Origin: Xenococcaceae cyanobacterium MO_167.B52
GTDB taxonomy: Bacteria; Cyanobacteriota; Cyanobacteriia; Cyanobacteriales; Xenococcaceae
Direction: 5' to 3'
Length of the DNA stretch: 38,973 nt
Assembly: GCA_030065315.1 (NCBI GenBank)
Contig: JASJDB010000003.1
Location: 1 to 38,973, forward strand
In this document: positions 9,346 through 38,973 of the stretch, in pieces
Layout of the letters: each line of letters begins with the position of its first letter
Position numbering within the stretch: the first letter of the stretch is position 1
Program-made: the position numbers and the translations under genes
Notes under the pieces: generated by a model
What the model saw: the letters and a program-made list of their open reading frames with translations, nothing else
What the model was told of the DNA's origin: nothing
Database searches by the model: none

Positions 9346-9353
9346 TATTTCTG

Positions 9354-11870: not shown

Positions 11871-11958
11871 ATTATCTCTCCCAAAAACTTATTTTTAAAT
11901 AACCTGGGTCAATTTAAAGAAGACGGAGCAAAAGTATATTGGAGCAGTACGACTAAAA

Positions 11959-12080: not shown

Positions 12081-12084
12081 GAAC

Positions 12085-13266
12085 TCATAACATCAAATTT
12101 TCAAAGACTCCAGCAGCACCCATACCACCTCCAATACACATAGTTACCATGCCATAGCGGATACCACGTCGTTGCATTTCATGGAGTAAGGTAGCAGTGA
12201 GTTTTGCCCCAGTACAGCCGAGGGGATGTCCTAAAGCTATCGCACCACCGTTAACGTTTATAATGTCTTCATCTAGGGCAAGTTTGCGAATTACTGCTAG
12301 AGACTGTCCTGCAAAGGCTTCATTAAGCTCGATCAGTCCGATATCTGCTAGGGTTAAACCTACTTGTTTTAAGACTTTCGGGACGGCTTCTATGGGACCA
12401 GTACCCATAATTGCTGGTGGTACGCCAGCTATCGCATAACCCAAAAGTTTTGCCATGGGTTTGAGGTGCAGTTCATCCAGTATTTTCTGACTTACTATGA
12501 TACTTGCTGCTGCACCATCAGACATTTGGGAAGCATTGCCAGCAGTGACTGTACCTTTAACATGAAATACTGGTTTCAATTTAGCTAAGGCTTCTAAACT
12601 AGTGTCTGCCCTTACTCCTTCATCTGTGGCAAAGATTTTTTCTATAGTCTTGGCTTGTCCCTGGTCATAAATAGTTTCCTTTACTGTAATCGGAACAATT
12701 TCCGCAGTAAAACGACCTGATTTAATAGCTGCTAAGGCTCGTTTGTGCGATCGCAAAGCAAATTGATCTTGATCTTCACGGGAGATCTGAAACTCTCTAG
12801 CGACATTTTCCGCAGTAATCCCCATAGTGATATAGGGTTCGGGAGAATGATCCATTAGTTCGGGATTAGGTGCGAGATAATGACCACCCATAGGCATTAA
12901 ACTCATGGATTCGGCTCCACCAGCCACAATCACCTCTGCCTGTCCTGTCATAATGGCTTGGGATGCCATAGCAATAGTTTGTAATCCCGATGCACAGAAA
13001 CGATTCACCGTACAACCAGGTACAGAATCAGGTAATCCAGCCCGTTGTGCCACTATTCTGCCTAAATTGAAACCCTGTTCTCCTTCAGGAAAAGCACAAC
13101 CCATCATCACATCATCAATCAGTTCTGGCTTTAATTCTGGCACTTTTGCGATCGCACCTTGAACCGCAGTTGCGCCCAAATCATCGGGACGAACATTGTG
13201 TAAAGTTCCCCGTGGTGCTTTTCCAATAGCAGTTCTTACACTGCTTACTATATATGCTTCTTTCAT
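12085..13266 (-). CDS. fadA: Acetyl-CoA C-acyltransferase (3-ketoacyl-CoA thiolase)
   Basis: Thiolase motifs: [59 protein letters not shown]. Start at MKEAYIVSS preceded by SD AAAGGAGAAAGAA. Confidence 0.93.
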
Positions 13267-13337
13267 TTCTTTCTCCTTTTTGAGTTCGGAATTACTCATA
13301 AATTAACAACGCCGAACCACTAACTACTAACCACTAA

Positions 13338-15680: not shown

Positions 15681-15720
15681 TATGTTTTTCTCCTTTGAAT
15701 TCAATAATGATTAGAGTGGG

Positions 15721-18081
15721 CTAGGCTGTGGAACTGTTTTTTCCAGTAATCTCTGAATCTAATTCTTCAGAATTATTATTTTCTTCTTCTAGCTTCCAGA
15801 GCATTGTGGGGGGTAGAGTAAAATAGTTTTTTAAGTTTTTCAGATATCTCCCGATAGTGCGGAATTGAAAATTGTCTTTCTTGCCCAGAAAAGCAAATTC
15901 TTCGTCCTCGAATGAGGGTAGTTTAAGAGAGCTATCGGTTCCTTTATGAATCCCCATCTTATGTAAGAAATCTCCACCTTTGGCACCTAAATTACGGAAG
16001 TATTCCAGAACAACTTGCCATGATAGAAATTTGAACTTTTTAGCCAGCAATTTGAACTTTAATAACTCCCACAACTGGGTGGGCATTAGGGACTCCCGAA
16101 GAATACTTGTAGTTAACTCTTCTCCATACAGAGCATTTATTTCTCTGGCAAATATTTCATCGACTTGGGCGCGATCAACTGGTAAGTTTGGCTCTAATAG
16201 TCCATTTTCGACACTAAGCTTGGCATTAACTAACTGAAACTGCTTAACATTCGACCATATAGGCAGCTTTTCGTTAGCTTCATCCACTAAAGTTTGATAA
16301 AGAGCAATAATCTCTGGGTGTTGTAGTAAATCTTTAGTTGGTAAGTGCTGCCAGCCTAAAGCCTTAGCTTGCTTTTGTAACTGCTCTAGATCGGGGAAAA
16401 TCAACATTCCACAAAACTTTTTCTCCCTGCCCACCGCCACCGCCTGAGCTACTAAATGCGATCGCTCAATTTGCTCTTCTAAAGGTTGAGGAATGACATA
16501 TTTACCAGTGGAAAGTTTAAATAGGTCTTTTTTACTGCCTGTAATAGTCAAGAAACCTTCTGGCGTGAATGCTCCTAAATCTCCTGTATGCAACCAACCC
16601 AACTCATCTATAACTGAATTAGTGGCTTCAGGGTTTTTATAATATCCCTGCATCACATAAGGAGCTTTAACGAGAATTTCTTGATCATTTGCAATCGCAA
16701 TTTCTACCCCAGGAATTGGTAATCCTACTGTTCCTGCGCGGTTTAAACCATTGCGATTGCAACAAACCACAGAACTGGTTTCAGTTAAGCCATAGCCTTG
16801 GAGTACAATCATGCCCGCAGCACTAAGTAGATTAGCAATCTCAGCTTTTAATCCGGCACCGCCACTAATAAAGTATTTGAGCTTACCACCAAAAGCTTTT
16901 CGCCATTGAGAAAAAACTAACCAATCTGCTAACTTAAGTTGCAAAGTATTAAATATACTAATTGGTTCTCCCAACTCGTAATTTTGAGCCAGTTTAAATG
17001 CCCAATTAAAAATTGTTTTCTTAATTCCTTTGAGCTTACTACCGCGATCAATTATCTTTTGATAAATTTTTTCTAATAAACGGGGTACAGTAGCTACCAA
17101 AGTCGGCTGTACTGTTTTAAAATCTCTAACTGCTCGGTTGGGAGTAGAGAAATAAATACTATGTCCATAATTAAGATGACCGTAAATTAACGCTCGTGCA
17201 AAAATATGGGTTAAGGGTAAAAAAGATAGTACTGTCTCAATTACTCCTGGTTTTAAATCAGGAATACTCCTAAAAGTAGTCAGAATATCAGCAGTAATAT
17301 TTTCATGACTTAACATTACCCCTTTAGGTTCTCCTGTCTCTCCAGCAATATAAACTATGGTTGCCAAGTCTTGAGGAGAGATACTAGAGCGCAATTGCTT
17401 TAACCCCTCTTCATTCCATAACTTTTTACCCCTAGCTCGTACTTCATCGAGAGATAATAATTGAATACATTGAGGCAAACTGGGAGAATGTAAGTCTTGT
17501 CTTCCCTGACAAAGCAACATGGGAATACATAAACAAGCTGGGGGAGAATTCCTAACTTCCAATTCATTTACACCACAAGTTAAGAGTTCAATCCGTTTTT
17601 CTGACCAATCATCAGGAATATCGGCGACAATAATTGTCTGAAGATTGGGAGTCTTGCCTAAATAGGGAATGATTTGAGCAAGCAGATCTAAATCCGAAAC
17701 AATTAAGACTTTAGCTGCGGAATGACTCAAGATGAATACGATATTATCTAGAGTTTGAGTTAAATCAATTGGTACATTAGTTAGTCCAGCCAGTAATGAA
17801 CCAAAATCTGCCAGACAGAAATTCAGATCGCTGTGCATTAATAAAGCGATTTTGTCACCCTGTTCTAATTCCTCTTCAAGTAATCCTAAAGCCAACTCTT
17901 CCGCAGCAGTTCGCATCTTTTCATTAGATTGAGCCTGCCAAGCACTATTTGGCCACTGGTTAAATGCACGATAATTTGGATAGGATTCGCAAGCTTCATC
18001 TAACAATGACGGTAGCGTTCGCCCCAAAATTGGCTGATCAATTATGGAATCAGATTTATTAATCTCAATTAAAGAAAACAT
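15721..18081 (-). CDS. fadD: Long-chain fatty-acid-CoA ligase / AMP-dependent synthetase with extended C-terminus
   Basis: Adenylation motifs: YIAGETGEPKGVMLSHENI, LQGYGLTETSSVV, GWLHTGDLGAFTPEGFLTITGSKKDLFKLSTGKYV. Placed first in the beta-oxidation cluster. Confidence 0.85.
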   Translation of the reverse strand: MFSLIEINKSDSIIDQPILGRTLPSLLDEACESYPNYRAFNQWPNSAWQAQSNEKMRTAAEELALGLLEEELEQGDKIALLMHSDLNFCLADFGSLLAGLTNVPIDLTQTLDNIVFILSHSAAKVLIVSDLDLLAQIIPYLGKTPNLQTIIVADIPDDWSEKRIELLTCGVNELEVRNSPPACLCIPMLLCQGRQDLHSPSLPQCIQLLSLDEVRARGKKLWNEEGLKQLRSSISPQDLATIVYIAGETGEPKGVMLSHENITADILTTFRSIPDLKPGVIETVLSFLPLTHIFARALIYGHLNYGHSIYFSTPNRAVRDFKTVQPTLVATVPRLLEKIYQKIIDRGSKLKGIKKTIFNWAFKLAQNYELGEPISIFNTLQLKLADWLVFSQWRKAFGGKLKYFISGGAGLKAEIANLLSAAGMIVLQGYGLTETSSVVCCNRNGLNRAGTVGLPIPGVEIAIANDQEILVKAPYVMQGYYKNPEATNSVIDELGWLHTGDLGAFTPEGFLTITGSKKDLFKLSTGKYVIPQPLEEQIERSHLVAQAVAVGREKKFCGMLIFPDLEQLQKQAKALGWQHLPTKDLLQHPEIIALYQTLVDEANEKLPIWSNVKQFQLVNAKLSVENGLLEPNLPVDRAQVDEIFAREINALYGEELTTSILRESLMPTQLWELLKFKLLAKKFKFLSWQVVLEYFRNLGAKGGDFLHKMGIHKGTDSSLKLPSFEDEEFAFLGKKDNFQFRTIGRYLKNLKNYFTLPPTMLWKLEEENNNSEELDSEITGKNSSTA
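17470..17590. repeat. Possible in-frame insertion in the fadD N-terminal domain
   Basis: Encodes atypical Cys/Pro-rich ELEVRNSPPACLCIPMLLCQGRQDLHSPSLPQCIQ between IELL and LLSLDEVRARG. Confidence 0.35.
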
Positions 18082-18329
18082 TGGCAATTCTAAGAGATAA
18101 ACTTTCTTTTCTCCTGAAGACTATCTTTAGTCTTTGAGATGTTGCCCAACATTTTTTCGCAACTACAAGACTGATTTGATAGCCATGTAATAAAAACACA
18201 TATTAGCTATTAACATTTATTAAATTTAAATCATCTTTCTGATATTTTCGACCCAAAACATCACTCAGGCAATTGGTTTTTGAAGGTTATATTCTTGCCC
18301 GTACAAAGCTAGATAATAAGCTAATCTGA

Positions 18330-22034: not shown

Positions 22035-22055
22035 AGGGTGGGCATTGCCCACCCT
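22035..22055. terminator. Palindromic hairpin between convergent genes (possible bidirectional terminator)
   Basis: AGGGTGGGCA-t-TGCCCACCCT, perfect 10-bp arms, between convergent stops at 21969 and 22082. Confidence 0.5.
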
Positions 22056-22081
22056 ACCTGAGAAAAAATTAATTAGATTTG

Positions 22082-23794
22082 CTATCTATTTGTCACAAGC
22101 TCTGGCTCATTTTCTATGGTTACGGGTGCTTTATTAGAAGATTTAAACCATCCTTTGTATTTAGTCGTGGTAATTATGACGAAGAGTAAATCTAAGCCCA
22201 CAAAAGCAGCAACAGCAAATACAGAATCTCCTGTACCGAAACCATAACTGTGTAACCCAGTACCGAGAACAAAGTTTACTCCATACCAAGCCATTAATAC
22301 GGCATTAAATGCCACAACACTGGTGACAGCCATACCGAAATCAGCTAACCAACCAACTAAACGCCCGTGAAGGGGTACAACGTAACACATTAAAGCGATT
22401 AATGCCCAAGTTTCTTTAGTATCCCATCCCCAGAAACGTCCCCAAGCATAGTGCGCCCAGATACCGCCCAGAATAATTCCTGTGGTAAGTAATAACACTC
22501 CGACCTGTAAGACTCCATAATTCCATTTACCGAGGCTGCGAATTCTAGCTTTAGCTTGGGGGGCAAATAGATAATGTCCTAAGATAATGTGACCTAATCC
22601 CAATGCCAGGGCAAAAGCAGCATAACTTAGGGTAATAGTAGGAACATGAATGCTCAACCAAAAGTTGTCTCTGAGTACTGGGACTAGAGGTTTGATAGTA
22701 GGATCGAGTATGGCAGGGAGACTATCCGCTAGTATCAAACAAACTATAGATAATGGTGCAGCAGCTAATAAGTAATATTTAGCACGATAGATACATTCAA
22801 ATAATAACGCGATGGCGGTAATTCCGAAACTTACCCAAATTACAGATTCATACATATTAGTGACAGGAGGTCTGCCAGCAATTTGCATTCTTTCGAGGAA
22901 GCCGTAACCGTGAATAAGTAATCCAGTACTGAATATTCCCACCGCACCCCAATAGAAGTCTAAGGATTTAAACAGCAATACCAGTAACATGATTAAAAAT
23001 CCCAAGGCATAAATCATCCAAGCTTTAGCAAAAGGATGCAAGCCATAAAATCTCACTTCTCTAGCTAAAGTAGCTGTATCAGGATAAATACTGGGGCTAA
23101 GATTATCTAATTTAGTTTGCAGTTCACCAGCAATATTACCTAAACTAATCTGATCTTGGGGATTGTTGCGATAGGTTTGCTTGAGATTATCATAGTCTGC
23201 AATTAGAGACTGCATAGAGTCAGCATTATAATATTGTTCTGCTTCAGGGATACCTACCCAATTACCTTTAATATCTGTGGGATGAGGTACTAAAGGCAAA
23301 TTATCATTACCTACTGTTTCTACAGTTAAAGCCAATCTATCTTCAATAGTCAAAGCTTCTCTTTCATCTCTATTTAGATCAATCCCTGCAACTTGTTTCT
23401 CTTTAGTAGCTACCAGAACATCCCTCAGAGGAGACTGGATTAACTCAGAAAAACTAAAATATTTACGCTCAGGATCCAGTCCTAATTGCTCTTTTAGGGG
23501 ACGATAACTAAATAAAATGAAAGGTTCTTCATTCCAATTACGGTTATTAAGCCATAAAGAAAGATAGGTATCAAGATAATTTAGTTTTATACCATCTGAA
23601 GTTTCATAGCTAGTTCTACCATGAAGTTGGGCTACAGTTTCTCTAGCTACCGTATCTAGAGGTTTTTTCCTTCCTTCTAGTTGTACAGCTAAGTCTTTTA
23701 AAGGTTCAATAGGGGATGGTTGGAAATTACTAATTGGTAAAACCAAAATGGAAATTCCCAATACCAGCCCGATAATAAATTTTATGATTCTCAC
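22082..23794 (-). CDS. Cytochrome c biogenesis protein, CcsA/ResC-like, with extra N-terminal domain
   Basis: C-terminal WGRFWGWDTKETWALIALMCYVVPLHGRL (WWD-type) plus conserved His in TM segments; about 240-aa N-terminal region including GRKKPLDTVARETVAQLHGR. Confidence 0.8.
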   Translation of the reverse strand: MRIIKFIIGLVLGISILVLPISNFQPSPIEPLKDLAVQLEGRKKPLDTVARETVAQLHGRTSYETSDGIKLNYLDTYLSLWLNNRNWNEEPFILFSYRPLKEQLGLDPERKYFSFSELIQSPLRDVLVATKEKQVAGIDLNRDEREALTIEDRLALTVETVGNDNLPLVPHPTDIKGNWVGIPEAEQYYNADSMQSLIADYDNLKQTYRNNPQDQISLGNIAGELQTKLDNLSPSIYPDTATLAREVRFYGLHPFAKAWMIYALGFLIMLLVLLFKSLDFYWGAVGIFSTGLLIHGYGFLERMQIAGRPPVTNMYESVIWVSFGITAIALLFECIYRAKYYLLAAAPLSIVCLILADSLPAILDPTIKPLVPVLRDNFWLSIHVPTITLSYAAFALALGLGHIILGHYLFAPQAKARIRSLGKWNYGVLQVGVLLLTTGIILGGIWAHYAWGRFWGWDTKETWALIALMCYVVPLHGRLVGWLADFGMAVTSVVAFNAVLMAWYGVNFVLGTGLHSYGFGTGDSVFAVAAFVGLDLLFVIITTTKYKGWFKSSNKAPVTIENEPELVTNR

Positions 23795-23866
23795 GGTATA
23801 TTAAGGTCTCTCAAGAAATTCGCTATATAAAATTATAAGTAATTAGCCTCTCAAGAAATTAGGATT

Positions 23867-24457
23867 ATGTATTTAACTAGTAAGCACATAGTAAAACTTA
23901 GTAGTTGGGGACTAGCTGTTTTATGGAGTTTTAGTCTTACTATTAGCGGACATAAACTCATTTTAGTGTCAGCTAATGCTGTTACTGCCCCCAGTGGCGT
24001 AGTTTCTTTTAATAAGTCTCCTCGTTTGATCGATGCTCATACAACTTTTAGTGGTACTAGGATCCGAGGTGCAATCTATTATTTTGATGTTGAGTTACCT
24101 CAAGATGCAGGAGAACCACTGGAACAAATTGTCATTCGTCAGCGTCAAGGGCAACAAGATATTAAATTTAGGCTAGATAGAACAGTAGCTTATAGGGGAA
24201 CTCATCGTAAGAAAAAAGCACCATTAAATATCGCCACTGTTACTCAAGATCCAGAGAGCCAAGCAATTACAATTGTTTTTGATGATTATATTAACCCTGG
24301 TACGACTTTTACAGTAGGAGTTAAGCCTAGAAGAAATCCTTTCTATGACGGAATTTATCTATTTGGTGTTACGGCTTTTCCTGCTGGAGAAGAATCTAAC
24401 GGTTTGTATTTGGGTGTAGGTAGATTCCACTTTTATCGGGTCGGAGATTACTTCTAA
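23867..24457 (+). CDS. DUF2808 domain-containing protein
   Basis: TYYFDVELPxxAGEPLxxIxI-like core (IYYFDVELPQDAGEPLEQIVIRQRQG) and C-terminal LGVGRFHFYR typical of cyanobacterial DUF2808. Confidence 0.75.
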   Translation: MYLTSKHIVKLSSWGLAVLWSFSLTISGHKLILVSANAVTAPSGVVSFNKSPRLIDAHTTFSGTRIRGAIYYFDVELPQDAGEPLEQIVIRQRQGQQDIKFRLDRTVAYRGTHRKKKAPLNIATVTQDPESQAITIVFDDYINPGTTFTVGVKPRRNPFYDGIYLFGVTAFPAGEESNGLYLGVGRFHFYRVGDYF

Positions 24458-24707
24458 TTTTAGATAGATAAATTTTTGATAATCCACAGAAATATAAAAA
24501 AAGATTATCGAAATTTATGTCGATTGTGTGTCGTTGGAAAATTTAGAGGGTGTAGGAAAAAGTATTTCTCAAGTTTTTCTGTGAAGTCAATTTATCTAAT
24601 ATCAAACTATAGTTAATCCCCTATACATAAAAAGCCTGCCTAAGCAGACTAGAAAAGTAAGAGGGGGATATATATCTGATTTAAGTTTTGCTAGATCCTG
24701 GCAGGTA

Positions 24708-24754
24708 AAGATTTTAGCTTTTGCCAACTATTAAAGCTATTAAGCTAAAATCTT
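24708..24754. other. 13-bp inverted repeat/hairpin in a long intergenic region
   Basis: aagattttagctt (24708-24720) and aagctaaaatctt (24742-24754), 21-nt loop. Confidence 0.6.
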
Positions 24755-25334
24755 AGGTCTTTATCTTGCTTAATTAACCATTGTAGTCAATTACTGTGGT
24801 TTAAAGCATCTGATTATCTTCTAGATCATTAAAGTTACTTATGCTGGATTTTTTTAAAATTTCTTTGTCTTGTGTTGGTGATATTTCAGCGTGCATTGAG
24901 AATAACTGGTGTAGTTTATAAATCCGATCTACTGAGTTTAATTTGTACATTTCTTTTTGTGTTTGTGGTTTGTTGTTTGTATATTGAAAATTTAAATAAA
25001 AAAAGTTAAAAACTTGGAAAGATCAGAATTAAAAAATTTTACAAGTGTTTTTGATCCTTTTGCTGGCTAACTTATAAGGATTTTGGAGATATTATCTCAA
25101 TTTGTTAAGAAGAAATAATTTATTGTTTTGAGCGGAAATTATCAATAGTCTTGTCGGTAAATCATCAATATTTAAACTTCTAAAGAATAAGTAAAAATAC
25201 TCACCAAGCCGAAAAATAGCGATTACATCAGAATAATTGAGAGGAATTGTATGATTAGTTACTAAAATTTCAGACCATTACTAAATTGTGTAATGATTGA
25301 AATTATTTGCAAGATAGTTAAATTCTTTAAAACT

Positions 25335-26729
25335 ATGTCCCAATTACTTGAAGACTATCGCAATCTTCTGACAGATTTAGTAACCCGTTATCAGACTCAG
25401 ATAGATTTTTTAACTATTCGCCTTGAAGAAGCAGAAAGTACAGATATTTTACTTCGGGGAAATAGGATTGAAACTCTGAGTGAAAGCTTGGCTTTAGGAG
25501 GACAAGTAAGAGCTTGTTATAAGGGAGGATGGGGTTTCGCAGCTTTTAATGATTTATCCACACTCCAAGATAAAATTGAAGAAGCGATCGCATCAGCTAA
25601 AATTATTGGGGATGATCAAACCATACTCGCACCAGTAGAACCAATACAGACAGTTTGTACCTTACCCCTAACTGGAATTGACCCTCGTAACATACCTTTA
25701 ACTGAAAAAAAAGCTTTATGCGATCGCTATAATTCCCTACTTCAACAATATAGCGATCTGATAACCACCAGTTCCGTCAGATATGGGGATAGTACCCAAA
25801 GGATTATTTTAGTCACTTCTGAAGGAACAGCGATCGAGCAATCTTGGTCAGATCTGGAAATGCGCTTTTCTGCGACAGCTAGAAAGGGGGAAACTGTCCA
25901 AACAGGAAGAGAAACCACAGGATCCAGAAAAGCTTACCAAGACTTGGAAAATTTAGAAGCACAAGTGCAGGGTGCAGCAGCAAGAGCCGTTAAGGCTTTA
26001 TCTTTACCCTCTATTAAAGGAGGCACTTATCGAGTTGTAATTGACCCCATCCTAACGGGTTTATTCGTTCATGAAGCTTTTGGACATCTTTCTGAAGCGG
26101 ACATGACTTACGAAAACCCCGATCTCTTAGAAGTGATGAGTATGGGAAAATCCTTTGGCTCACAAGAATTGCAGATTTATGATGGAGCCTTACCCGAAGG
26201 ACATAGAGGTAGCTACTATTATGATGATGAAGGCACCCCAGCCACTACCACCCAATTAATCAAAGATGGGGTCTTGGTGGGACGCTTACACTCGCGAGAA
26301 ACCGCAGGAAGATTAGGAGAAAAACCTACAGGAAATGCTCGCTGTTTGAGCTATCATTATCCTCCTCTAGTCAGAATGACCAATACTTGGATTGAAAGGG
26401 GTAAAACTCCTGTGGCTGATTTATTTCAAAATATCGATGAGGGAGTCTATGCTTGTAACTGGTTAGGGGGAATGACTAACGGAGAAATGTTCACTTTTAG
26501 TGCAGGGGAAGCTTGGATGATTCGCAATGGAGAATTAGCCGAGCCTGTGAGAGATGTTACTTTATCGGGCAATGTCTTTAAAACCTTAGCTAATATTGAA
26601 GCCATTGGAGATGATTTTTATTGGGATGAATCTGGTGGTTGTGGTAAAGGAGGGCAAAACGGTTTACCCGTCGGTTGTGGAGGTCCCAGTCTTAGAGTTA
26701 AAGATGTAGTAGTTGGCGGTGATGCCTAA
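25335..26729 (+). CDS. tldD: TldD/PmbA family protease, TldD-like
   Basis: HEAFGHLSEAD metal-binding motif, YDDEGTPATTTQLIKDGVLVGRLHSRETA, C-terminal GGCGKGGQNGLPVGCGGPSLRV. Confidence 0.88.
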   Translation: MSQLLEDYRNLLTDLVTRYQTQIDFLTIRLEEAESTDILLRGNRIETLSESLALGGQVRACYKGGWGFAAFNDLSTLQDKIEEAIASAKIIGDDQTILAPVEPIQTVCTLPLTGIDPRNIPLTEKKALCDRYNSLLQQYSDLITTSSVRYGDSTQRIILVTSEGTAIEQSWSDLEMRFSATARKGETVQTGRETTGSRKAYQDLENLEAQVQGAAARAVKALSLPSIKGGTYRVVIDPILTGLFVHEAFGHLSEADMTYENPDLLEVMSMGKSFGSQELQIYDGALPEGHRGSYYYDDEGTPATTTQLIKDGVLVGRLHSRETAGRLGEKPTGNARCLSYHYPPLVRMTNTWIERGKTPVADLFQNIDEGVYACNWLGGMTNGEMFTFSAGEAWMIRNGELAEPVRDVTLSGNVFKTLANIEAIGDDFYWDESGGCGKGGQNGLPVGCGGPSLRVKDVVVGGDA

Positions 26730-26766
26730 TCTATGAGACCGAGAGTATTAAATTGATCTAAAAAGC

Positions 26767-27886
26767 ATGAGTCAAAAATACCAAGCTAATAAAATTATTA
26801 CTTCCTTAGCTATTATTACAGCTGCTTTAGGTTTAGCTTATGCACCCATACCAGGAGTGAAACAAACTATTATTGTTGTCAGTGGCACAGAATTAAAAGA
26901 ACCACTCCAAGAATTAGAAACTAGATTTGAGCAAAACAATTCTAATATCGACTTACAACTAAAATTTCAAGGTTCTCAAGATATTGTTAATAATTACCTT
27001 GCTCAAAAAAATGACTTTAACCCAGCTATTTTAATACCTGCAAACGCACAAATCCTAGAAGAATTAAGCACTCGCTGGCAAGCCTCTAATAATAGTAAAC
27101 CTTTTTATAATCAATCAACAGCGATCGCAAAAACTATCTTAGTCGCAATTGCCTGGCAAGAAAGAGGGAAAGCTATTTTCCCTAATGGTAAATTTTCTTG
27201 GTCTAAAATAGAACAAGCAATGAAACAACGCAACTGGTCAAAAATTGGAGGAAAACCTAATTGGGGAAGTTTTGATTTTGTAACAACTAATCCTACCCGC
27301 TCTAATAGTGGTCAATTAACTTTAAATTTATGGATGCAATCAAATAAGTATAGTTTAAATAATCCTCAAACCGAATCTCTTTTTTCCCTAATCAAAAAAT
27401 CCGTATATCAACCACCTCGTTCAACAGATATCTTATTACAAGAATTTATTAGTCGTGGTGCTAACGATGGAGATATCGCTACAGTATATGAACGATGGAG
27501 ATATCGCTACAGTATATGAAAGTATCGCTTTACACCGTTGGTCACAAGCTAAGATAACCCAAGGAAAACCTGATCAAATCTACTATCCAAATCCCACAAT
27601 TGAAACGGTAGCCACTGCTGCTATTGTTAGGCAAAACATAGACCAAAATACAGCCAAATTAGCAACAAAATTTATAGACTTTATTACCCAGCCCAAGCAA
27701 CAGGAAATATTTGTTCAATACGGCTTTCGTCCAATAATTTCTAATGTTGATCTAGAATCTGTTCCTAATAGTCCTTGGGTACAAAATATTCCAGGTGCAA
27801 TGCCAAAGCTTACAGTAAAAGTAGAACAGCCTCCCAGTTCTCAAGATATTGCAGAGATTCAACGCTTATGGGGTCGAGTTCGCTAA
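26767..27886 (+). pseudogene. Extracellular solute-binding protein, frameshifted by a 28-bp tandem duplication
   Basis: Two overlapping ORFs (26767-27519 and 27455-27886). Removing one 28-bp copy restores a single ORF of 363 codons plus stop. N-terminus resembles PBP2-type SBPs (VVSGTELKEPLQELETRFEQNN). Confidence 0.85.
27463..27518. repeat. 28-bp perfect tandem duplication
   Basis: aacgatggagatatcgctacagtatatg at 27463-27490 and again at 27491-27518. Confidence 0.98.
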
Positions 27887-27987
27887 TCAATAACTGATGT
27901 CAGGAAGCTATCTAATATTTATGTAGTACATTGTATCCATCTCTTGTAAGCCATGTATTAATATAGACTTACAAGATAAAACATAAT

Positions 27988-28104
27988 TTAATCCATTCCT
28001 AATTGATCACCACGCTTATATTGCATATATGCAGCAAAAAATAGCCCTAATAATGTAATGAAAATTAGACCCAACACCATACCTAACAATAAAGGTTCAA
28101 TCAC
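27988..28104 (-). CDS. petG: Cytochrome b6-f complex subunit PetG (38 aa, GTG start), absent from ORF track
   Basis: Manual translation of minus strand: (M)[37 protein letters not shown], matching the PetG consensus; SD aaggag upstream. Confidence 0.93.
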
Positions 28105-28229
28105 CTAATGTCTCCTTATTAATAATTTATTTGTTTTAACATATATTATGTTAACCGAATTTACCCCTATCCTAAATCTCATGCTAAGAGAAGTTGCAAT
28201 TGTCCAGTCATAATTACTCCACCATAAAA

Positions 28230-28323
28230 GGGATGAGAACCCGCGGAGAAGATTTCGCAAAGAAAACTCATCAAGGTAATATGGAGCCTGGGATGACTGC
28301 ATTTTGCGGTTAAGTATCATCCC
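28230..28323. promoter_or_regulatory. Alternating complementary segments in petG/cytochrome c intergenic region
   Basis: GGGATGAG (28230-28237), CTCATC (28267-28272), GGGATGA (28290-28296), TCATCCC (28317-28323) allow mutually exclusive stems. Confidence 0.35.
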
Positions 28324-28400
28324 AATGAAACCGTATATTTCTAAGAGTATACGGATACATTACAAAAAAATAATTAAGTAAACACTTTAATCAAAAACTA

Positions 28401-28775
28401 GTGGATAAACAGTTAGTCCAATCTCCATTATGGATTCAGCGTCTCTTGATTCTGTCTGTAGTGTTGATAGTTACTTTATGTATTTCTATCTTGGGCATCT
28501 ATCACAATAAAAATCTAGACCCCTATATTCATCAAGTATTATCTTTGGAAGGAGACCCAATTAACGGTGAAGCCATTTTTCAGATAAACTGCGCTGGATG
28601 TCATGGAATCAAAGCTGACGGAAGTGTTGGACCTAGTCTCCAAAATGTTCATAAACGCAAATCTAAGATAGAGTTAATCAATCAAGTGATCAGTGGAAAC
28701 ACTCCTCCAATGCCCAAGTTTCAACCCAGTCCAGAAGAAATGGCGGATTTGCTGACCTATCTAGAACAACTTTAA
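28401..28775 (+). CDS. cytM: Membrane-anchored c-type cytochrome, probable cytochrome cM
   Basis: Single N-terminal TM; heme motif CAGCH; MPKFQPSPEEMADLLTYL. Resembles CytM from memory. Confidence 0.7.
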   Translation: MDKQLVQSPLWIQRLLILSVVLIVTLCISILGIYHNKNLDPYIHQVLSLEGDPINGEAIFQINCAGCHGIKADGSVGPSLQNVHKRKSKIELINQVISGNTPPMPKFQPSPEEMADLLTYLEQL

Positions 28776-28839
28776 TTGTTAATTTCTTGGAAAGTGGGGG
28801 AAAATTCATAAACTCCCCTCACTCTGACTAAATAATTAC

Positions 28840-29091
28840 TTAAAATCTTTCTACACTACCCAGATAAATAGGCTCAACCCGAATTGCAACTATATTCGCA
28901 GGACGAACAACCATATATTCTCCCTGAATATTTTTGATGGGTATATTAATAAAGTCTAGAGAATTTGATTTTGGTACTAAATCACTACTGTACCATTTTT
29001 GAAATTCTTGCACTGTCGTGAATCTAATTTCTTCTTTATGACCACCAGAGAAGAAAAAGTGAATTGCGTATTCATCGGGTTTTCTAGGCAT
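28840..29091 (-). CDS. Conserved hypothetical protein (83 aa)
   Basis: MPRKPDEYAIHFFFSGGHKEEIRFTTVQEFQKWY; start at internal Met. Confidence 0.55.
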   Translation of the reverse strand: MPRKPDEYAIHFFFSGGHKEEIRFTTVQEFQKWYSSDLVPKSNSLDFINIPIKNIQGEYMVVRPANIVAIRVEPIYLGSVERF

Positions 29092-29204
29092 GATAGAACT
29101 ACAGCTTTTATAATTTTTATGCAATAAATTTTAGTCCTATAGTTCCCACAAATGATGGATGAAATATAGAAATACAATAGAAAACACTGATATTTCAAGG
29201 TAAT

Positions 29205-29241
29205 AAAAAATCAGCAACTAAAAATAATTATAGTTGCTGAT
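29205..29241 (-). terminator. Rho-independent terminator downstream of the DUF2605-DUF2973 pair
   Basis: Perfect 11-bp stem ATCAGCAACTA/TAGTTGCTGAT (29210-29241), followed on the minus strand by TTTTTT. Confidence 0.85.
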
Positions 29242-29315
29242 ATTAAAATTTTATGAATTAAAGTTCGTCTAGTAATATAAAAATCAGTGTAAAGATATGC
29301 CTTAATTACCACTGC

Positions 29316-29642
29316 TTATTCTTTTGGCTCATTACCTTTGTTAGAAGATTCATTATACAAAGCATCCAATTTTTGACGAGCATCTTCTACCGAAATAGAG
29401 CGCATTACTAATAAGGGTTCGTCAATTCTTCTTCCTTGATTGTCCAGTAACTCAGGATGTAAATTTGCCGAATTATTCCCTTGAGTTTTATAGGGATAAT
29501 TTTGTTGGTATTGTGGCTGCTGACGCTTTTGGGGATAGTTTCTTTGAGTTTCTGTGCTGAGGGTTATTAAACTGCGTACTAAGTTAGTTACTGCCAAGAC
29601 AGCAATAATTGTAAATGCTAAAATGTATATTAGATGTAACAT
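29316..29642 (-). CDS. DUF2973-like membrane protein
   Basis: MLHLIYILAFTIIAVLAVTNLVRSLITL N-terminus and PELLDNQGRRIDEPLLVMRSISVEDARQKLDALY tail, cyanobacterial family. Confidence 0.75.
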   Translation of the reverse strand: MLHLIYILAFTIIAVLAVTNLVRSLITLSTETQRNYPQKRQQPQYQQNYPYKTQGNNSANLHPELLDNQGRRIDEPLLVMRSISVEDARQKLDALYNESSNKGNEPKE

Positions 29643-29717
29643 GAGTAGACTCCTTTGTCCGAGTTTTTTGTTTGACTAAAATAGTAAATTAACTTGATAT
29701 TCTTCTGATAATTAGCA

Positions 29718-30053
29718 CTAGATTGCTTGTCTATCTTGATTGTTATATTGTCGCCATTTTCTAGCAACATCCCAACATTCCGTAACTAATTGATGTAAAG
29801 GGATTAAGGTTTTGAAATCAACTCCTGCTTTTCCTTCTGTCGCTTGGAATAGCATTTGAGCAGTACTAATTTTTTGTTGACTATACTTGATTCTCTCTAG
29901 CAGTTCTGCTTGCTCTAATTCTGAATAGAAAGGTAGTCTCTCTGATTCGAGTAAGGTGCGAGTAGAAGTAAACCAGTATTGGAAATCTTCTAGCAAAGGT
30001 TCCAAAACCGCTTTTAAGAGGTCTTTTTCTTGGGGTTGCTGAGAAAACATCAA
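29718..30053 (-). CDS. DUF2605-like protein
   Basis: LLKAVLEPLLEDFQYWFTSTRTLLESERLPFYSELEQAELLERI, typically adjacent to DUF2973. Confidence 0.75.
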   Translation of the reverse strand: MMFSQQPQEKDLLKAVLEPLLEDFQYWFTSTRTLLESERLPFYSELEQAELLERIKYSQQKISTAQMLFQATEGKAGVDFKTLIPLHQLVTECWDVARKWRQYNNQDRQAI

Positions 30054-30205
30054 TTATCAAACATTTTATTATTACAATACTTATATTAACGTCTTTTACA
30101 TTACTTAATAAAAAATAAGATTTTTTTTATATTTGCTCAAATTTTAGTTTGAGCCTTTAAGTGATACTGTAAAAGTTGCTGGCAAGTTTAACTGATTGAT
30201 AAGTA

Positions 30206-30517
30206 ATGCACGTTCTTTCAATTCCCACTTGGATGGTTCATGTTTCTAGCGTCATCGAATGGATACTGGCAATTTGGCTAGTATGGCAATATGGCGCAGT
30301 AGTAGGTAATCTTTACTGGAGAACATTATCTTGGGCTATGGTGCCAGCCTTGGTAAGTGCTATGTGTGCTTGTACTTGGCATTTTTTCGATAATGATTTA
30401 TCTCTTCAATGGCTAGTGACTCTACAAGCATCGATGACTGTGGTGGGAAATTGTACTTTATTTATTGCAGCTTGGCTGATTTATGCTCAAAGCAAAAAAA
30501 ATGTTGAAGGAAATTAA
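30206..30517 (+). CDS. DUF2499 / Ycf49-like membrane protein
   Basis: MHVLSIPTWMVHVSSVIEWILAIWLVWQYG...MVPALVSAMCACTWHFFDN. Confidence 0.8.
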   Translation: MHVLSIPTWMVHVSSVIEWILAIWLVWQYGAVVGNLYWRTLSWAMVPALVSAMCACTWHFFDNDLSLQWLVTLQASMTVVGNCTLFIAAWLIYAQSKKNVEGN

Positions 30518-31632
30518 TCATATTCTTGGTAAATATCTTCGATATTGATCTCATCGTACAATTCTTGCAAATTTTGTTGTTTTTCCCGACGGGAAGAACG
30601 ACGATACTTTTTACTAGCTAGTCTGGGTTCGTATTGGCTTTTTCCAGATTTTTTGATCTTAAGTTTGACAGTCGATTCTGCGTCTGGGGTGTTTTGTTGC
30701 TGTTTTTTATGAAAAATTGTTTTTTCTAAAAATACTCTGTAATATTCATACCTTTCCCAATTACCTCTGACAACACAATTTGGTTCATCCCGATGGGAAC
30801 AATTTTTGAATTGACACTGTCCTCGACTCATTCGGCTTCGGGCTTCAGGAAAATATAAAGCTAAATCAGTTGGTTCGTGGTCTAAATCGGGTTGATTAAA
30901 TCCAGGGCTATCTGCCAATAAACCACCCCCAGGAATACTAAACAACTCTACATGGCGAGTAGTGTGACGACCTCTTTGTAATTTACCAGAGACTTTTCCC
31001 ACTCTCAATTGAGCAGCAGGAATTAATTTATTGATTAAACTAGATTTTCCTACACCACTAGGACCAGCTAAAATTCCAATTTTGCCTTGTAGGTACTCTC
31101 TTAAGCTTTCTATGCCTTGATTTTGAATAGCACTGACAAATACAGGATTATATCCCCAAGAGCTTAATCTTTCCTGCCATTGCTGCTGCTGTTGTTCGCT
31201 AATTAAATCGCATTTATTGAGACAGAGACAAATCTCTAACTTTGTAGATTCAGCCTTGATCAGAAAACGACTTAATTGCCAGGTATCTAAAGTAGGTTCT
31301 TCTAAAGCAAATACCAGCAAAATTATATTGGCATTAGCTATGGGAGGTCTTTTTAGCTCAGTACTGCGGGAGAGAACTTGGGAAATTGCACCTCTACCAT
31401 CAAGCCAATCAGGTTCTTCGATAATTACGAGGTCGCCAACAATGACTTTCTGACCAATTTTTTTCAGGCGGGTTCTGCGAGTACAAAGTAAATAATTACT
31501 CTCAAAATTCTCAGGAATTAACCCGCTTTGATTCCTATTATCCAAAAGAACTCGATAAAAATTAGCTTGTACCGCGACAACCGTCCCTCTTAATTGATTA
31601 TGATTTGTTGCTGCTGATTGAAATTCACTCAC
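30514..31632 (-). CDS. rsgA: Ribosome biogenesis GTPase RsgA (circularly permuted)
   Basis: LNKCDL (G4) precedes GPSGVGKSSLINKL (G1); C-terminal zinc motif CQFKNCSHRDEPNC. Confidence 0.92.
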   Translation of the reverse strand: MSEFQSAATNHNQLRGTVVAVQANFYRVLLDNRNQSGLIPENFESNYLLCTRRTRLKKIGQKVIVGDLVIIEEPDWLDGRGAISQVLSRSTELKRPPIANANIILLVFALEEPTLDTWQLSRFLIKAESTKLEICLCLNKCDLISEQQQQQWQERLSSWGYNPVFVSAIQNQGIESLREYLQGKIGILAGPSGVGKSSLINKLIPAAQLRVGKVSGKLQRGRHTTRHVELFSIPGGGLLADSPGFNQPDLDHEPTDLALYFPEARSRMSRGQCQFKNCSHRDEPNCVVRGNWERYEYYRVFLEKTIFHKKQQQNTPDAESTVKLKIKKSGKSQYEPRLASKKYRRSSRREKQQNLQELYDEINIEDIYQEYD

Positions 31633-31895
31633 AGCTTTAGAGGCTTACGTACTAGTAAAGCAAAAAACTCTTGACGATTTTCAACCATTTCTAATTGATA
31701 ACCTTCCATTTTCAAGCTATCTGGTACTTGTTCTATGGGTTCTCCAGCATCTAGCCAAACTTCCAATAAAGCATTAGATGGCATTTGTTCTAAGCGTAGT
31801 TTGGTTCTGACAAAATTAATGGGACAGGGAGTACCCCGCAAATCTAGAAAAGCATCTGCTTGAGACTTATAATCAACATTTAAGCCACTAGTCAT
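31629..31895 (-). CDS. TusA/SirA-family sulfurtransferase-like protein
   Basis: [45 protein letters not shown]. Confidence 0.88.
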
Positions 31896-33022
31896 TTATG
31901 AAATAATCCTCCCAAAAATCCTTCTAAACCTCCTTTTCCGATACTTTTTCCCTTAATACTGGCTAATTTTTCCAATAACTCTCGTTCATCAGCATTGATT
32001 CGAGTGGGAATTTCAACCTTAATTGTAATCAAGTGATTGCCACGACTTACTGGGTTGCCTAACTTGGGAACTCCTTTGTTTTCTAGAGTGATAATAGTAT
32101 TCGGTTGGGTTCCAGCGGGGATTGTAATCGTTTCTGTTCCGTCAACTCCATTAACTTCTAGGCGACAGCCCAAGATTGCTTGTAGATAACTGATCTTAAT
32201 TTCAGATTTAATGTTGATTCCATCTCTGGCAAATTCCTTGTCAGGCTCAACAAATAAATAAACATATAAATCTCCTGAGGTGCCACCGCGAACCCCCGCA
32301 TCTCCTTCAGAAGCTACTCTCAAGCGAGTTCCATTATCTACACCAGGAGGAATAGTAATTTTGAGTTTTTTGGTTTCTTGTTTTCTGCCTGCACCATTAC
32401 AAGCCTCACATTTAGCTTCTATAATTTGTCCTACACCATTACAGGTTGGACAAGTAGAAACTTGAGCAAAACTGCCAAAAGGAGTCCGAGTCGCTCTTTT
32501 GACTTGACCTACCCCATTACAGGTAGGGCAGGTACGAGGACTGCTACCTGGTTTGGCTCCACTACCTTGACAAACCCCACAAGTTTCTAAATGGGGTATT
32601 TTAATCTGCTTTTCCCCACCAAATATAGCCTCACGAAATTCCAGCTTTAAATCTAATCGGAGATCATCCCCTCTTGCAGGACCATTACGACGGCGAGAAG
32701 TTGTTTGAGAACCTGCCCCACCAAAACCGCTAAAGATCGTCTCAAATATATCGGCAAAGCCTCCCATATCACCATACTCAAATCCAGAGGCTCCGGCACC
32801 AGAAGAGACTCCAGCTTCACCGAAGCGGTCATATCTGGCTTTAGTTTCTGGTTCTGAGAGTATTTCATAGGCACGGTTGATTTCTTTGAACTTTTCTTCC
32901 GCACCTGATTCTTTATTTACATCAGGATGATATTTACGCGCCAGACGGCGGTATGCGCGTTTAATTTCTTCCTTGTCCGCATCTCTCGATACACCTAGGA
33001 TTTGATAATAGTCCCCTGCCAT
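31892..33022 (-). CDS. dnaJ: Chaperone DnaJ
   Basis: J domain with HPD (RKYHPDVNK), four CxxCxGxG-type zinc motifs. Confidence 0.95.
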
Positions 33023-33105
33023 AAATTCTTATTGTGTTGTGTGGTGTCCCTATCGTACTGTAACAAAATATTTTGTCTAAAGTTCTATATTATTACAACG
33101 ATAAC

Positions 33106-35145
33106 TTAATCTACAACTTCGTAATCATCAAATGATGTGTCATCATCAATCATAGTTCTGTCATCGTTGTATTGTTCGACAGCCAAACTTTGGTGGTTAC
33201 TTTGATTAACACTTACTACGGCTCTAGATGATTCATCTTGTCGGAGTCTATCTATAGGAGTTTCAGAACTAGCAATATTGGCTTCAATATCTTCAAACTC
33301 TAACATTTGCGCTAGGGCATCTTCCTCACTTAAGGTACTGTTCTGATATACTTGACTACCAGCTTGAAGTATTTTCTGTCGTAACTCTTCTAGAAGGTCA
33401 TTCATAATCTCAAAGCTGCCCTGACCGTTGTCAAATGTTTGGTCAATACGCCTTTTTAATTGACTGATATGAGATTTGAGTTCTTCTTTGATCAGATCGG
33501 GTTGACGACTTAGAGTGAGTTCGTAGTTGTAATATAAATCATCCGCTTGATTTTTCAATTCTACAAGTTGAAGCCGATTACGGTCTTGTTCCGCACAAGC
33601 TTCTGCTTCTTGACGCATAGTTTCTACTTCTACAGCACTCAAACCACCTGTGTTAGAAATGGTGATATTTTGGTTTTTTCCTGTACCTTTGTCTTCTGCT
33701 GCAACTTGTAAGATGCCGTTAACATCGATTTCAAAACTGACCTCGATTTGAGGCACACCTCTAGGAGCGACTGGAATACCATCTAGCAAAAATTTGCCCA
33801 AGCTTTTATTATCTTTTGCCATAGCTCGCTCTCCTTGGAGAACATGAATTTCAACTGATGTTTGTCCATCGACGGCAGTGGAAAAAACTTGGGATTTACT
33901 GGTAGGAACTGTGGTATTTTTTTCAATAATTTTTGTAAAAACTTCTCCCAAAGTTTCTAGTCCTAAAGACAGGGGGGTTACATCTAGCAAGAGTAAATCT
34001 TCTACCTCTCCTCCTAATACACCTGCTTGAACGGCAGCACCAAGAGCAACGGCTTCGTCAGGATTGACTGAGCGGTCTACTTGCATTTGGGGAAAAACAG
34101 TTTGAATAGCTTTTTGCACCCCAGGAATACGAGTCGAGCCCCCCACTAAAATTAAACGCTCAATGTCATCTGAAGATAAGTCAGCGTCTTTAAGAGATTG
34201 TTTTACAGGTTCTAAAGTTTGCTCGATTAAACCCCGAGCCAACTCTTCAAATTTAGACCGACTTAGTTCCATTTCCAAGTGTTTGGGTCCTGTTTCATCA
34301 GCGGTGATAAACGGCAGGTTAATCGAAGTAGTAGGGGCGGTAGAAAGTTCTATTTTGGCTTTTTCTGCTGCTTCTCTGAGTCTTTGTAAAGCCATTTTAT
34401 CGTTTCTAAGGTCGATCTGTTCTTGGCTATGAAAAGCTTTGATCATCCAGCGTACGATGACATTATCAAAGTCGTCACCACCAAGTTGATTATTTCCACA
34501 AGTTGCTTTTACTTCAAATACACCATTGCCTAATTCCAGAATCGAAACATCAAAAGTTCCTCCTCCCAAATCGAAAACTAAGATATTTTGTTCGCGGTCT
34601 AACTTATCTAAGCCATAAGCTAAGGCAGCAGCAGTAGGTTCGTTAATAATTCGTAAAACTTCTAGTCCCGCGATTGTGCCAGCGTCTTTAGTTGCTTGTC
34701 TTTGGGCATCTGTGAAGTAAGCGGGTACGGTAATTACTGCTTGAGTTACTTCTTCCCCTAAAAAGTTTTCTGCATCGGTTTTGAGTTTTTGCAAAATCAT
34801 TGCCGAAATTTCTTGGGGGGTATATTGACGATTTTGAATTTTAACGTCAACTGTCTTATCTCTACCAGTTACGCATTGATAAGGAACTCTAGAGCGTTCT
34901 TCTTCTGTTTCCTCCCAACGACGACCAATAAAACGTTTGATGCTATGAATTGTGTTAATGGCGTTGGTCACAGATTGTCGTTTTGCCAGTTGCCCCACAA
35001 GACGAGTATTTCCTTTGGCAAAAGCCACCATACTAGGGGTGGTACGCCCTCCTTCTGAGTTAGCAATTACTACAGGTGTTCCCCCCTCTAGCACAGAAAC
35101 ACAACTATTCGTAGTTCCTAAATCAATACCAATAACTTTTGCCAT
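33106..35145 (-). CDS. dnaK: Chaperone DnaK (Hsp70)
   Basis: [55 protein letters not shown]. 679 aa with acidic EVVD tail. Confidence 0.96.
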
Positions 35146-35277
35146 AATATCGAGGCATTCAGGTCAATTTTGTTCACAGTTAGCTTGATAAAAACAATCC
35201 AGAGTACAGTTTTTTTCCGTTGAAGATTATTCTTAACGGTGAAGTTGAGTCGGAATATTTTCTCATAGAAAACTAAT

Positions 35278-36045
35278 TTAGTTCTCGTCAACTACTTCAT
35301 CTTCTGAAGTTGTCTCTTCTTCTTCCGAGGTTATCACGGGTTCTTTAGGAACAGCAACTTTGACCATTGCATGTCGAATGACCTGTTCTTCTAGCATATA
35401 TCCCCGCATCAATTGCTCAATTACCGTACCTTCTGGATGTTCATCAGTTGCTTCCCTGAGCATTGCTTCATGAAAGTTGGGATCGAATTCTTGTCCTTCA
35501 GGACGCATAGCAGAGACCCCTAGTCTCTTGAGGCAATCAACTAAAGTTTTATATACTCCCTGATAACTATTCTGAATAGTTTGTTCTCCTTCTGTTGCTG
35601 GCTGGATTTGAACTCTGGCTCTTTCAAAATTATCTACTACTGGCAACAATTCAGTAACGAAGGCTTTTTTGGTTTGTTTGGTAAGATTTTCTTTTTCTTT
35701 GCCGGTTCTTTTGCGAAAATTGTCAAAGTCCGCTGCTAATCTAGCGTATTGAGCTTTAATGCCACTGCTTTGCTCAATTTTTTCATCTAGAAGCCTTTTC
35801 AAGTTAGCATTTTCTTGTTGTAGGGCGGAGATAATTGCCTCATTTTCAGTACTTTTTTCACTATCCAAGATTTGATCGGTTTCTTGAGAACTAGCATCAT
35901 GATTCTCTATGGATTGAGCATCTTGGGTTTCGGCAACAACCTCGGAAACTGCATTTTCGGAACAGGTTTCACTTGAATTAATTGTTTCTGAGGTGTTATT
36001 GGGAGTTTCGGAAGTAGTTGTTTGCTGATTTTGTTCGTCAATCAT
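35278..36045 (-). CDS. grpE: Nucleotide exchange factor GrpE
   Basis: [46 protein letters not shown]. Confidence 0.93.
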
Positions 36046-36265
36046 AGGACACTTCAAGATTCGAGTTTTTTTATTAATAGGGAGTTACGAAGCTGCTTGA
36101 GAAAGCATATATTACCACATGGCAAAGTTATTATAATGACTTTCAACTGACAACAGTATCACAATAATTTTCTCTGGTGTTGAGGAATATTTTTATCATC
36201 TTGTCTGAAATTTTAACAATAGTTTGGGGAACACTGGGTAATATCAGGAGACTATTTATGATTTT

Positions 36266-38290
36266 ATGACTTATTCATCATCTACTAAATCTACTAGATC
36301 TAAAAGAAATAGAGCGATCGCACTTCGTAATTATTTTTCTCCTTTTGGCAATAAACTGGTGGAAGCTGGATTCCTTAATGGGGAAGAAATGCAGAAGGCT
36401 TTAGCAGAAAGTCGTAAGTCTGGTCGTTCCTTGGTAGATATTATCGAATCTTTTAAAGGAGAGGCGTTACCACCTGATTTACAACGCCAATATAAAAAAC
36501 ACCATCTCTTCGAGTTAAAAATTCTCTATGGCGTAGAATCTGTCGATCCTGAAATTGAAGAAGTAAAAATCAAAATAGCAGGAGATTTAATTGATTCTCT
36601 GATTCCTTTGGATTTATGCCGTCGTTATCGCATGATTCCCCTAGAAAAGCAGGAGGAGCCTCTTGCTTTGTTGGTGGCGATGGTAGAGCCTGAAAACTTG
36701 GAAGCACAGGATGACCTGAATCGAATTTTGCGTCCCAAAGGAATCGAACTAAAACGAAAGGTAATTACTCAGTCAGATTATCAAAAACTAATTGATCAGT
36801 ATCTAGATGAGCAAGTTAAGCAAGAGAGCGTTAAGGAGAAGAAGAAAGACAATGTCAATGTTGATGTCTCTCTAGATTTAGATAATTTAGATTTTAATTT
36901 AGAAGAAACGGATGAGGACACTGCGGATGATTTGGGTGCAGTTAGTGAAGCTCAAGGGGCGCCGATTATTAGTCTGGTGAATAAAATTTTAGCTAAAGGG
37001 TTACAAGAAGGAGTATCAGATATTCACGTTGAACCTCAAGAAAATGCTTTACGAGTACGTTACCGCAAGGATGGAGTACTTCAGCAAGCCTTTGAACCAA
37101 TGCCGAAGAAAATTATTCCTGCTGTGGTGGCTCGCTTCAAGATTATGGCAGATTTGGATATTGCAGAGAAACGTCTGCCCCAAGATGGTAAAATTCGACG
37201 GATGTTTCAGGGCAGAAAAGTGGATTTTCGGGTTAATAGCCTACCCAGTCGCTACGGAGAAAAGGTCTGTTTGCGGATTTTGGATAACTCTGCTACTCAA
37301 TTGGGTCTAGATAAATTAATTACTCATCAACCCACCCTAGAACTAGTCAGAGACATGGCACAGCGTCCCTTTGGGTTGCTTCTGGTAACAGGTCCTACTG
37401 GTTCAGGTAAATCCACTACTCTCTACTCGGTTTTAGCTGAAAGAAATAATCCAGGGGTAAATATTAGTACTGCGGAAGACCCGATTGAATATTCTCTAGA
37501 TGGCATTACTCAGGTACAGGTGATTCGGGAAAAAGGCATGAATTTTGCCTCAATTCTACGGGCTTTTCTGAGACAAGATCCTGATGTAATTCTGGTGGGG
37601 GAAACCAGAGACCCTGAGACCGCAAAAACTGCTATTGAAGCTGCGATGACTGGTCACTTGGTATTAACTACCCTACACACTAATGATGCTGCTGGAGCAA
37701 TCTCTCGTTTGGATGAGATGGGTATTGAACCATTTATGATTTCTGGGGCATTAGTAGGAGTCCTAGCACAAAGATTAATGCGTCGGGTATGTAGCGAATG
37801 CAAAATTGCCTATAACCCTAGCACTGAAGAGTTAGCGCGATTTGGTCTATCAGCTTCTAATGAAGAAGAAGTTGTTTTCTATAAAGCTAAAACTTTAAAC
37901 GCAGAAGAAAAAGCGGAAGCTAAAGCTAATGGTACTCTTTGTCCCAAATGCGGTGGGGGTGGCTACAAAGGTAGAGTCGGTGTCTATGAAGTAATGAAAA
38001 CTTCGGAAAAAATAGAGGAGTTAATTAACCAAGGAGCTACTACAGATCGTATTAAGGAAGCTGCTGTAGAAGAAGGGATGATCACGATTTTGGCTTACAG
38101 TTTAGACCTAGTAAGGGAAGGTCACACCACTTTAGAAGAGGTAGAGAGGGTGACATTCACTGATTCCGGTTTAGAAGCAGAACTTAAAGCTAAAAGAAAA
38201 AGTGGTCTAGTTTGTCGTACTTGCAACGCCCAATTACAACCAGAATGGTTGGATTGTCCTTACTGTATGACTTCTCGTTTTTCTGACTAA
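36266..38290 (+). CDS. pilB: Type IV pilus assembly ATPase PilB (GspE family)
   Basis: Walker A VTGPTGSGKSTTLYSVL, Asp box, DPDVILVGETRDPETAKTAIEAAMTGHLVLTTLHTNDA, zinc CSEC/CPKC, plus extra C-terminal CRTC...CPYC ribbon. Confidence 0.93.
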   Translation: MTYSSSTKSTRSKRNRAIALRNYFSPFGNKLVEAGFLNGEEMQKALAESRKSGRSLVDIIESFKGEALPPDLQRQYKKHHLFELKILYGVESVDPEIEEVKIKIAGDLIDSLIPLDLCRRYRMIPLEKQEEPLALLVAMVEPENLEAQDDLNRILRPKGIELKRKVITQSDYQKLIDQYLDEQVKQESVKEKKKDNVNVDVSLDLDNLDFNLEETDEDTADDLGAVSEAQGAPIISLVNKILAKGLQEGVSDIHVEPQENALRVRYRKDGVLQQAFEPMPKKIIPAVVARFKIMADLDIAEKRLPQDGKIRRMFQGRKVDFRVNSLPSRYGEKVCLRILDNSATQLGLDKLITHQPTLELVRDMAQRPFGLLLVTGPTGSGKSTTLYSVLAERNNPGVNISTAEDPIEYSLDGITQVQVIREKGMNFASILRAFLRQDPDVILVGETRDPETAKTAIEAAMTGHLVLTTLHTNDAAGAISRLDEMGIEPFMISGALVGVLAQRLMRRVCSECKIAYNPSTEELARFGLSASNEEEVVFYKAKTLNAEEKAEAKANGTLCPKCGGGGYKGRVGVYEVMKTSEKIEELINQGATTDRIKEAAVEEGMITILAYSLDLVREGHTTLEEVERVTFTDSGLEAELKAKRKSGLVCRTCNAQLQPEWLDCPYCMTSRFSD

Positions 38291-38332
38291 ATTTTAATAA
38301 CAAATAATTAATTAAATCAAAGGTAAAAAACA

Positions 38333-38973
38333 ATGATGGATTTCATGATTGAAGATTTGATGGAGCAGTTGGTGGAGATGGGAGGCTCCGATATGCATAT
38401 CCAAGCCAGCGCACCAGTCTATTTTCGGATTAGTGGTAAGTTGACTCCTATTGGGGATGATTTGACTGCACCAGAATGTCAGAAATTAATCTTTAGTATG
38501 CTCAATAATACCCAACGCAAAGATTTAGAACAGAACTGGGAATTGGATTGTTCTTATGGGGTTAAAGGTTTAGCTCGCTTTCGGGTAAATGTGTATAAAG
38601 AACGAGGTTGTTATGCTGCTTGTTTGAGGGCATTATCTTCTAAAATTCCCAATTTTGATCAGTTGGGTTTACCCGATATTGTACGAGATATGACCCAAAG
38701 ACCCAAAGGATTGATTCTAGTTACAGGTCCTACTGGTTCAGGAAAAACTACTACTCTAGCAGCAATGTTAGACCTGATTAATCGTACTAGAGCCGAACAT
38801 ATTTTGACTGTGGAAGACCCAATTGAATATGTTTTCCCCAATATTAAAAGTCTGTTTCACCAACGACAAAAAGGCGAAGATACTAAGAGTTTTTCTAACG
38901 CTCTCAAAGGTGCATTGCGAGAAGATCCAGATATTATTCTGGTGGGGGAAATGCGGGATTTAGAAACTATTTC
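38333..38973 (+). CDS. pilT: Twitching motility ATPase PilT (partial, truncated by window end)
   Basis: Manual translation: MMDFMIEDLMEQLVEMGGSDMHIQASAPVYFRISGKL...LVTGPTGSGKTTTLAAMLD...EDPDIILVGEMRDLETI, running off the edge. Confidence 0.92.
   Translation, partial: MMDFMIEDLMEQLVEMGGSDMHIQASAPVYFRISGKLTPIGDDLTAPECQKLIFSMLNNTQRKDLEQNWELDCSYGVKGLARFRVNVYKERGCYAACLRALSSKIPNFDQLGLPDIVRDMTQRPKGLILVTGPTGSGKTTTLAAMLDLINRTRAEHILTVEDPIEYVFPNIKSLFHQRQKGEDTKSFSNALKGALREDPDIILVGEMRDLETI

Follow-up and report, generated by a model that had tools for sequence, protein, structure and literature searches.

A 28-bp tandem duplication splits an orphaned solute-binding protein gene, probably a pseudogene, in Xenococcaceae cyanobacterium MO_167.B52

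The broken gene and its duplication

The window – by which we mean the whole stretch of 38,973 nucleotides of Xenococcaceae cyanobacterium MO_167.B52 analysed here – carries, behind tldD, a solute-binding protein gene that is split in two by a short tandem repeat. The features of the locus are the following:

25293 to 26729, forward strand: tldD (PmbA/TldD metallopeptidase), the upstream neighbour, which lies outside the usual operon
26767 to 27519, forward strand: 5′ part of the broken solute-binding protein gene, a 250-aa open reading frame with about 242 aa of family sequence; PF13531 matches residues 36-244 (profile 2-165)
27455 to 27886, forward strand: 3′ part of the broken gene, in the shifted frame, a mechanical open reading frame from GTG 27455; PF13531 match at profile 154-227
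27463 to 27490, forward strand: first copy of the 28-bp unit (AACGATGGAGATATCGCTACAGTATATG)
27491 to 27518, forward strand: second copy, the same as the first, then AA (2-nt homology to the unit start)

The two copies are perfect and abut each other, from 27463 to 27518, giving an array of 56 bp. TRF carries its end on to 27520, because the AA that follows the second copy is the start of the unit again. No perfectly matching tandem array of the window is longer. At lag 28 the self-match runs over 30 bases, against a simulated maximum of 13 (window simulated 60 times with a first-order Markov model, lags 15-60). The duplication in the window is real. The first-pass annotation, made from the letters of the sequence, had the coordinates, the copy number and the effect on the frame right. 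A hairpin in the repeat unit was considered as a cause of the duplication and set aside, its fold being weak (z = -1.2).

As 28 leaves a remainder of 1 when divided by 3, the unit shifts the reading frame by one. Translation of the 5′ frame enters the second copy in the wrong frame and meets a stop, TGA, at 27517-27519. In the 3′ frame, family sequence begins at about 27488, at an in-frame ATG 29 bases ahead of the stop of the 5′ frame; some 121 aa of family sequence lie past the duplication. Pfam SBP_bac_11 (PF13531) is recognized in both parts, the N part scoring 34.6 bits (profile 2-165) and the C part 32.2 bits (profile 154-227), each above the curated cut-off of 25 bits. This bears out the identity that had been proposed for the gene, and the breakage of its frame as well: the 5′ frame stops after the second copy and the family sequence resumes in another one. 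When one copy is removed, computation of the frame yields the 363 codons that had been announced. There is no continuous frame over the whole SBP_bac_11 domain. Two overlapping frames are split at the duplication, within the binding domain, at profile position 160 or so of 227. The 250-residue product would end with eight foreign residues and would miss the final third of the solute-binding domain, an intact protein having about 363 residues.

Intact relatives and missing partners

In all 31 aligned relatives the gene is a single unbroken frame. They read RGANDGDVATVYESIALHRWSQAKIT through the break point, with one copy, as seen in locus L003, the alignment of which has a gap of 28 nt. Two genus mates (G003 and G005) have the gene intact, at 80% DNA identity, and so do the 18 other gene-bearing genomes of our order sample, where the frame is full-length in every case. 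The frame of the window is thus disrupted relative to its intact orthologues. The N part is 76-80% identical to the genus mates and retains most invariant sites. Two substitutions, P117S and Y260D, fall in columns that are invariant across the 31 relatives; under the same test, intact genes depart from invariant columns 0-4 times each, against two for the window. Decayed copies are found in other genomes: in Calothrix FI2-JRJ7 (L027) the gene is spread over three frames, in Cyanomargarita (L028) it has been cut short, and the entire three-gene module to which it belongs is in fragments in genome G021 (L040). Loss of this module seems to be common.

The module has a usual order in nearly all relatives: a protein of about 580 aa of the SBP_bac_8/VWA type, next a protein of some 240 aa that matches nothing in Pfam, and last the SBP_bac_11 gene. 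In the window, by contrast, the gene is alone, 37 bp behind tldD, with neither partner immediately upstream. The order sample comprises 100 genomes, and the binding protein is present in 19 of them, including the genome of the window (G000). The 240-aa partner accompanies it in 18 of the 18 others and is absent only from G000. With a strict cut-off, the SBP/VWA partner is found in 17 of these 18 and is likewise absent from G000; in the remaining genome, G074, the contig ends just ahead of the position of the SBP/VWA gene. G000, the assembly of which is 79% complete, is the sole sampled genome that has the binding protein without either partner. When the four genomes of the genus were searched directly, G003 and G005 proved to have both partners adjoining the gene; G000 had neither, distant VWA proteins being the only matches there. 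With an assembly that is 79% complete, it is likely rather than certain that the partners are absent from the G000 genome: the chance that they reside on missing contigs is about one in five, if loss is random and both genes are adjacent.

The co-occurrence of the binding protein, the SBP/VWA protein and the 240-aa protein points to an uncharacterised cyanobacterial surface module that is worth study. In L003 (1479-5089) and some 30 equivalent loci, the SBP_bac_8/VWA protein has a conserved cysteine near its N-terminus, and no transporter genes were seen in the run. The 240-aa gene is present in 18 of the 99 other genomes of the order.

A second contig with the same duplication

A scan of the collection found exactly the same two copies in contig JASJDF010000099.1 (C293, locus L043), assigned to the metagenome-assembled genome (MAG) Xenococcaceae cyanobacterium MO_188.B19 (G004). 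This contig matches the window from 22035 to 34568: over these 12.5 kb the identity is 99.04%, the differences being 118 mismatches and two gaps of one base each. The contig keeps P and Y at columns 117 and 260. MO_188.B19 also holds diverged versions of the flanks: its contig C240 corresponds to 22035-26736 of the window at 88-90% and its contig C362, a second copy of the other flank, to 33078-38973 at 92%, and the remaining long matches of this MAG to the window have identities of 81-95%. Because MO_188.B19 has its own copies of the flanks, at 88-92%, C293 was probably misbinned and would come from a different strain of the species to which the window belongs. We would then most likely be looking at two strains of one species, with two copies in each. 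The same second copies, C240 and C362, speak against MO_188.B19 as a sister species that received the duplication by descent. The duplication may be used as a marker tying this probably misbinned contig to the species of the window.

Between the two strains, the polymorphisms of the gene are clustered: 11 of them are found in a tract of 144 bp (27115-27258), then a single one across 27259-27882, and this suggests recombination between strains. Dating the duplication from the density of polymorphisms was therefore abandoned, clustered as they are in recombining strains. Nine are synonymous and four nonsynonymous, numbers too small to demonstrate relaxed selection; their ratio is indistinguishable from purifying selection and comes mostly from the one recombined-looking tract. 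The duplication had been called recent. It is so relative to the genus, with the single-copy gene intact in two genus mates, but it either predates the divergence of the contigs of the two strains or was spread by recombination between them.

MO_188.B19's own tldD locus, in C240, has no such gene: the sequence diverges seven bases past the tldD stop. There, an open reading frame of 135 aa (L062, 5392-5796) resembles, by eye and with no Pfam match, part of a phage-type integrase. It is possible that the locus behind tldD is an insertion hot spot. At the other end of the match, both C293 and C240 cease to align with the window at the very same base, 22035, at an inverted repeat (GGGTGGGCATTGCCCACCC); this repeat-associated breakpoint adjoins a mechanosensitive channel gene. 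Interspersed repeats are found at 1817-2010 and 9152-9348, with many copies, 90-100% identical, over contigs of G004 and G005. Finally, on the reverse strand of the window (9354-18087), a run of four genes resembles a full fatty-acid beta-oxidation set: an acyl-CoA dehydrogenase with the bacterial FadE-type C-terminal domain (PF09317), a thiolase, a 3-hydroxyacyl-CoA dehydrogenase/enoyl-CoA hydratase and an AMP-binding acyl-CoA ligase. In the family, 12 of 27 genomes have PF09317, and portions of the run recur in genus mates with identities of 81-95%. This pathway is often said to be missing from cyanobacteria.

Probable decay after the loss of an operon

The duplication and the frame break it causes are present in two contigs, and both partners are absent from the assembly as well as from the locus. 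We consider, with a probability of about 0.85, that the broken gene is a pseudogene, the remnant of a three-gene module that has come apart, and a case of ordinary decay. The third gene of the module (SBP_bac_8/VWA, 240-aa, SBP_bac_11) would have been parted from its partners and left alone behind tldD. A tandem duplication of 28 bp would then have arisen in it, with replication slippage or short-homology repair at the AA/AA junction as the probable cause, and the two nucleotides of homology at that junction are as expected if slippage or short-homology duplication was at work. Because of the change of frame, translation would yield 250 residues, 242 of which are family sequence, out of about 363, and the protein would be deprived of the last third of its solute-binding fold. 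If translation were re-initiated at the 3′ frame, no exported protein would be expected, because this frame appears to be without an export segment. Subsequently, the duplication would have passed into at least two strains, by inheritance or by recombination. Function was presumably lost in the process, with the gene orphaned first and broken later.

The source is an incomplete draft genome, in 449 contigs and 79% complete, and it had been proposed that the second copy might be an artefact of assembly; chimeric reads could have had the same effect, the true genome then having one copy and an intact gene. This is now hardly credible. Assembly error is unlikely because C293, a contig placed in a different bin and differing at 118 positions over 12.5 kb, shows the identical duplication, and it is very unlikely that the same 28 bp would be duplicated by an independent error. 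The sampled genome has no surplus of such duplications elsewhere, and usual read lengths exceed the 56 bp of the array. Comparison with a sister strain had been recommended at the outset; it returned a contig which likewise has two copies, hence no difference in copy number. This same observation weighs on the other proposal that had been made, that of a phase-variable switch, where slippage or recombination between the 28-bp copies would drop one of them and restore the gene in some members of the population, turning a surface protein on and off. A perfect repeat of 2 × 28 bp is in principle revertible by slippage, the repeat itself is undecayed in either strain, and the copy number of tandem repeats has been reported to be phase-variable in Mycobacterium tuberculosis (PMC12817950), mainly, however, for promoter repeats the copy number of which varies between strains. 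Here a coding repeat does set the frame, yet there are two copies, and two only, in both contigs (in a comparison of two strains), the G000 assembly is without any one-copy version, the operon partners are missing, and invariant residues are changing in the window. We sampled 60 contigs, 697 kb with the window: the other perfect tandem duplications well inside genes, of 12, 18, 45 and 57 bp, are all in frame, and the out-of-frame ones are mostly intergenic runs of 7-bp units. The 28-bp case is the only out-of-frame duplication of at least 24 bp that interrupts a clear gene. Nothing points to a systematic switch, because no further duplication of this kind was found in a gene in these 697 kb, and the 28-bp case looks like a single mutation rather than a member of a set of switches. 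Altogether, we regard phase variation as improbable, with the odds heavily against it. It is very improbable, too, that the two-copy state is the reversible 'off' form of a binding protein that stands alone at the surface, its one-copy 'on' form being rare in the same populations.

One might also imagine that the gene is useful in pieces, either as an N-terminal product of 250 aa, or as two fragments made via re-initiation at ATG 27488, cooperating or in a new role. The position of this ATG, so close ahead of the 5′ stop, would allow it, and both parts remain close to the sister strain in amino acid sequence (identities of 98.8% in the N part and 99.3% in the C part). But the C fragment, devoid of an export segment, would remain cytoplasmic, the break falls inside the binding domain, Y260D affects an invariant site, and such splitting is absent from relatives save for decayed copies. 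We give this view very little credence.

Decay remains our preferred account and, in practice, the gene should be annotated as a pseudogene. Taken alone the case is of little importance: it is an example of what befalls a gene once its operon has come apart. A search of the literature on the MAG series, on cyanobacterial cases and on short-homology duplications found nothing directly relevant. The window gene belongs to the same family as the cyanobacterial SBP_bac_11 (PF13531) branch that sits in the SBP_bac_8/VWA operon and it has kept most invariant sites, but it differs in being frame-broken and outside the operon. With tandem-repeat phase variation, as in contingency loci and in M. tuberculosis (PMC12817950), it shares a reading frame set by copy number; it departs from it by having only two copies, a long unit, an equal copy number in both strains and no partners. 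The likeness is closest with pseudogenes born from short out-of-frame tandem duplications: a perfect two-copy repeat, 2 nt of homology at the junction, a unit that is not a multiple of 3, a truncated product and intact single-copy orthologues in relatives, the sole difference being that the broken gene of the window is also without its operon partners.
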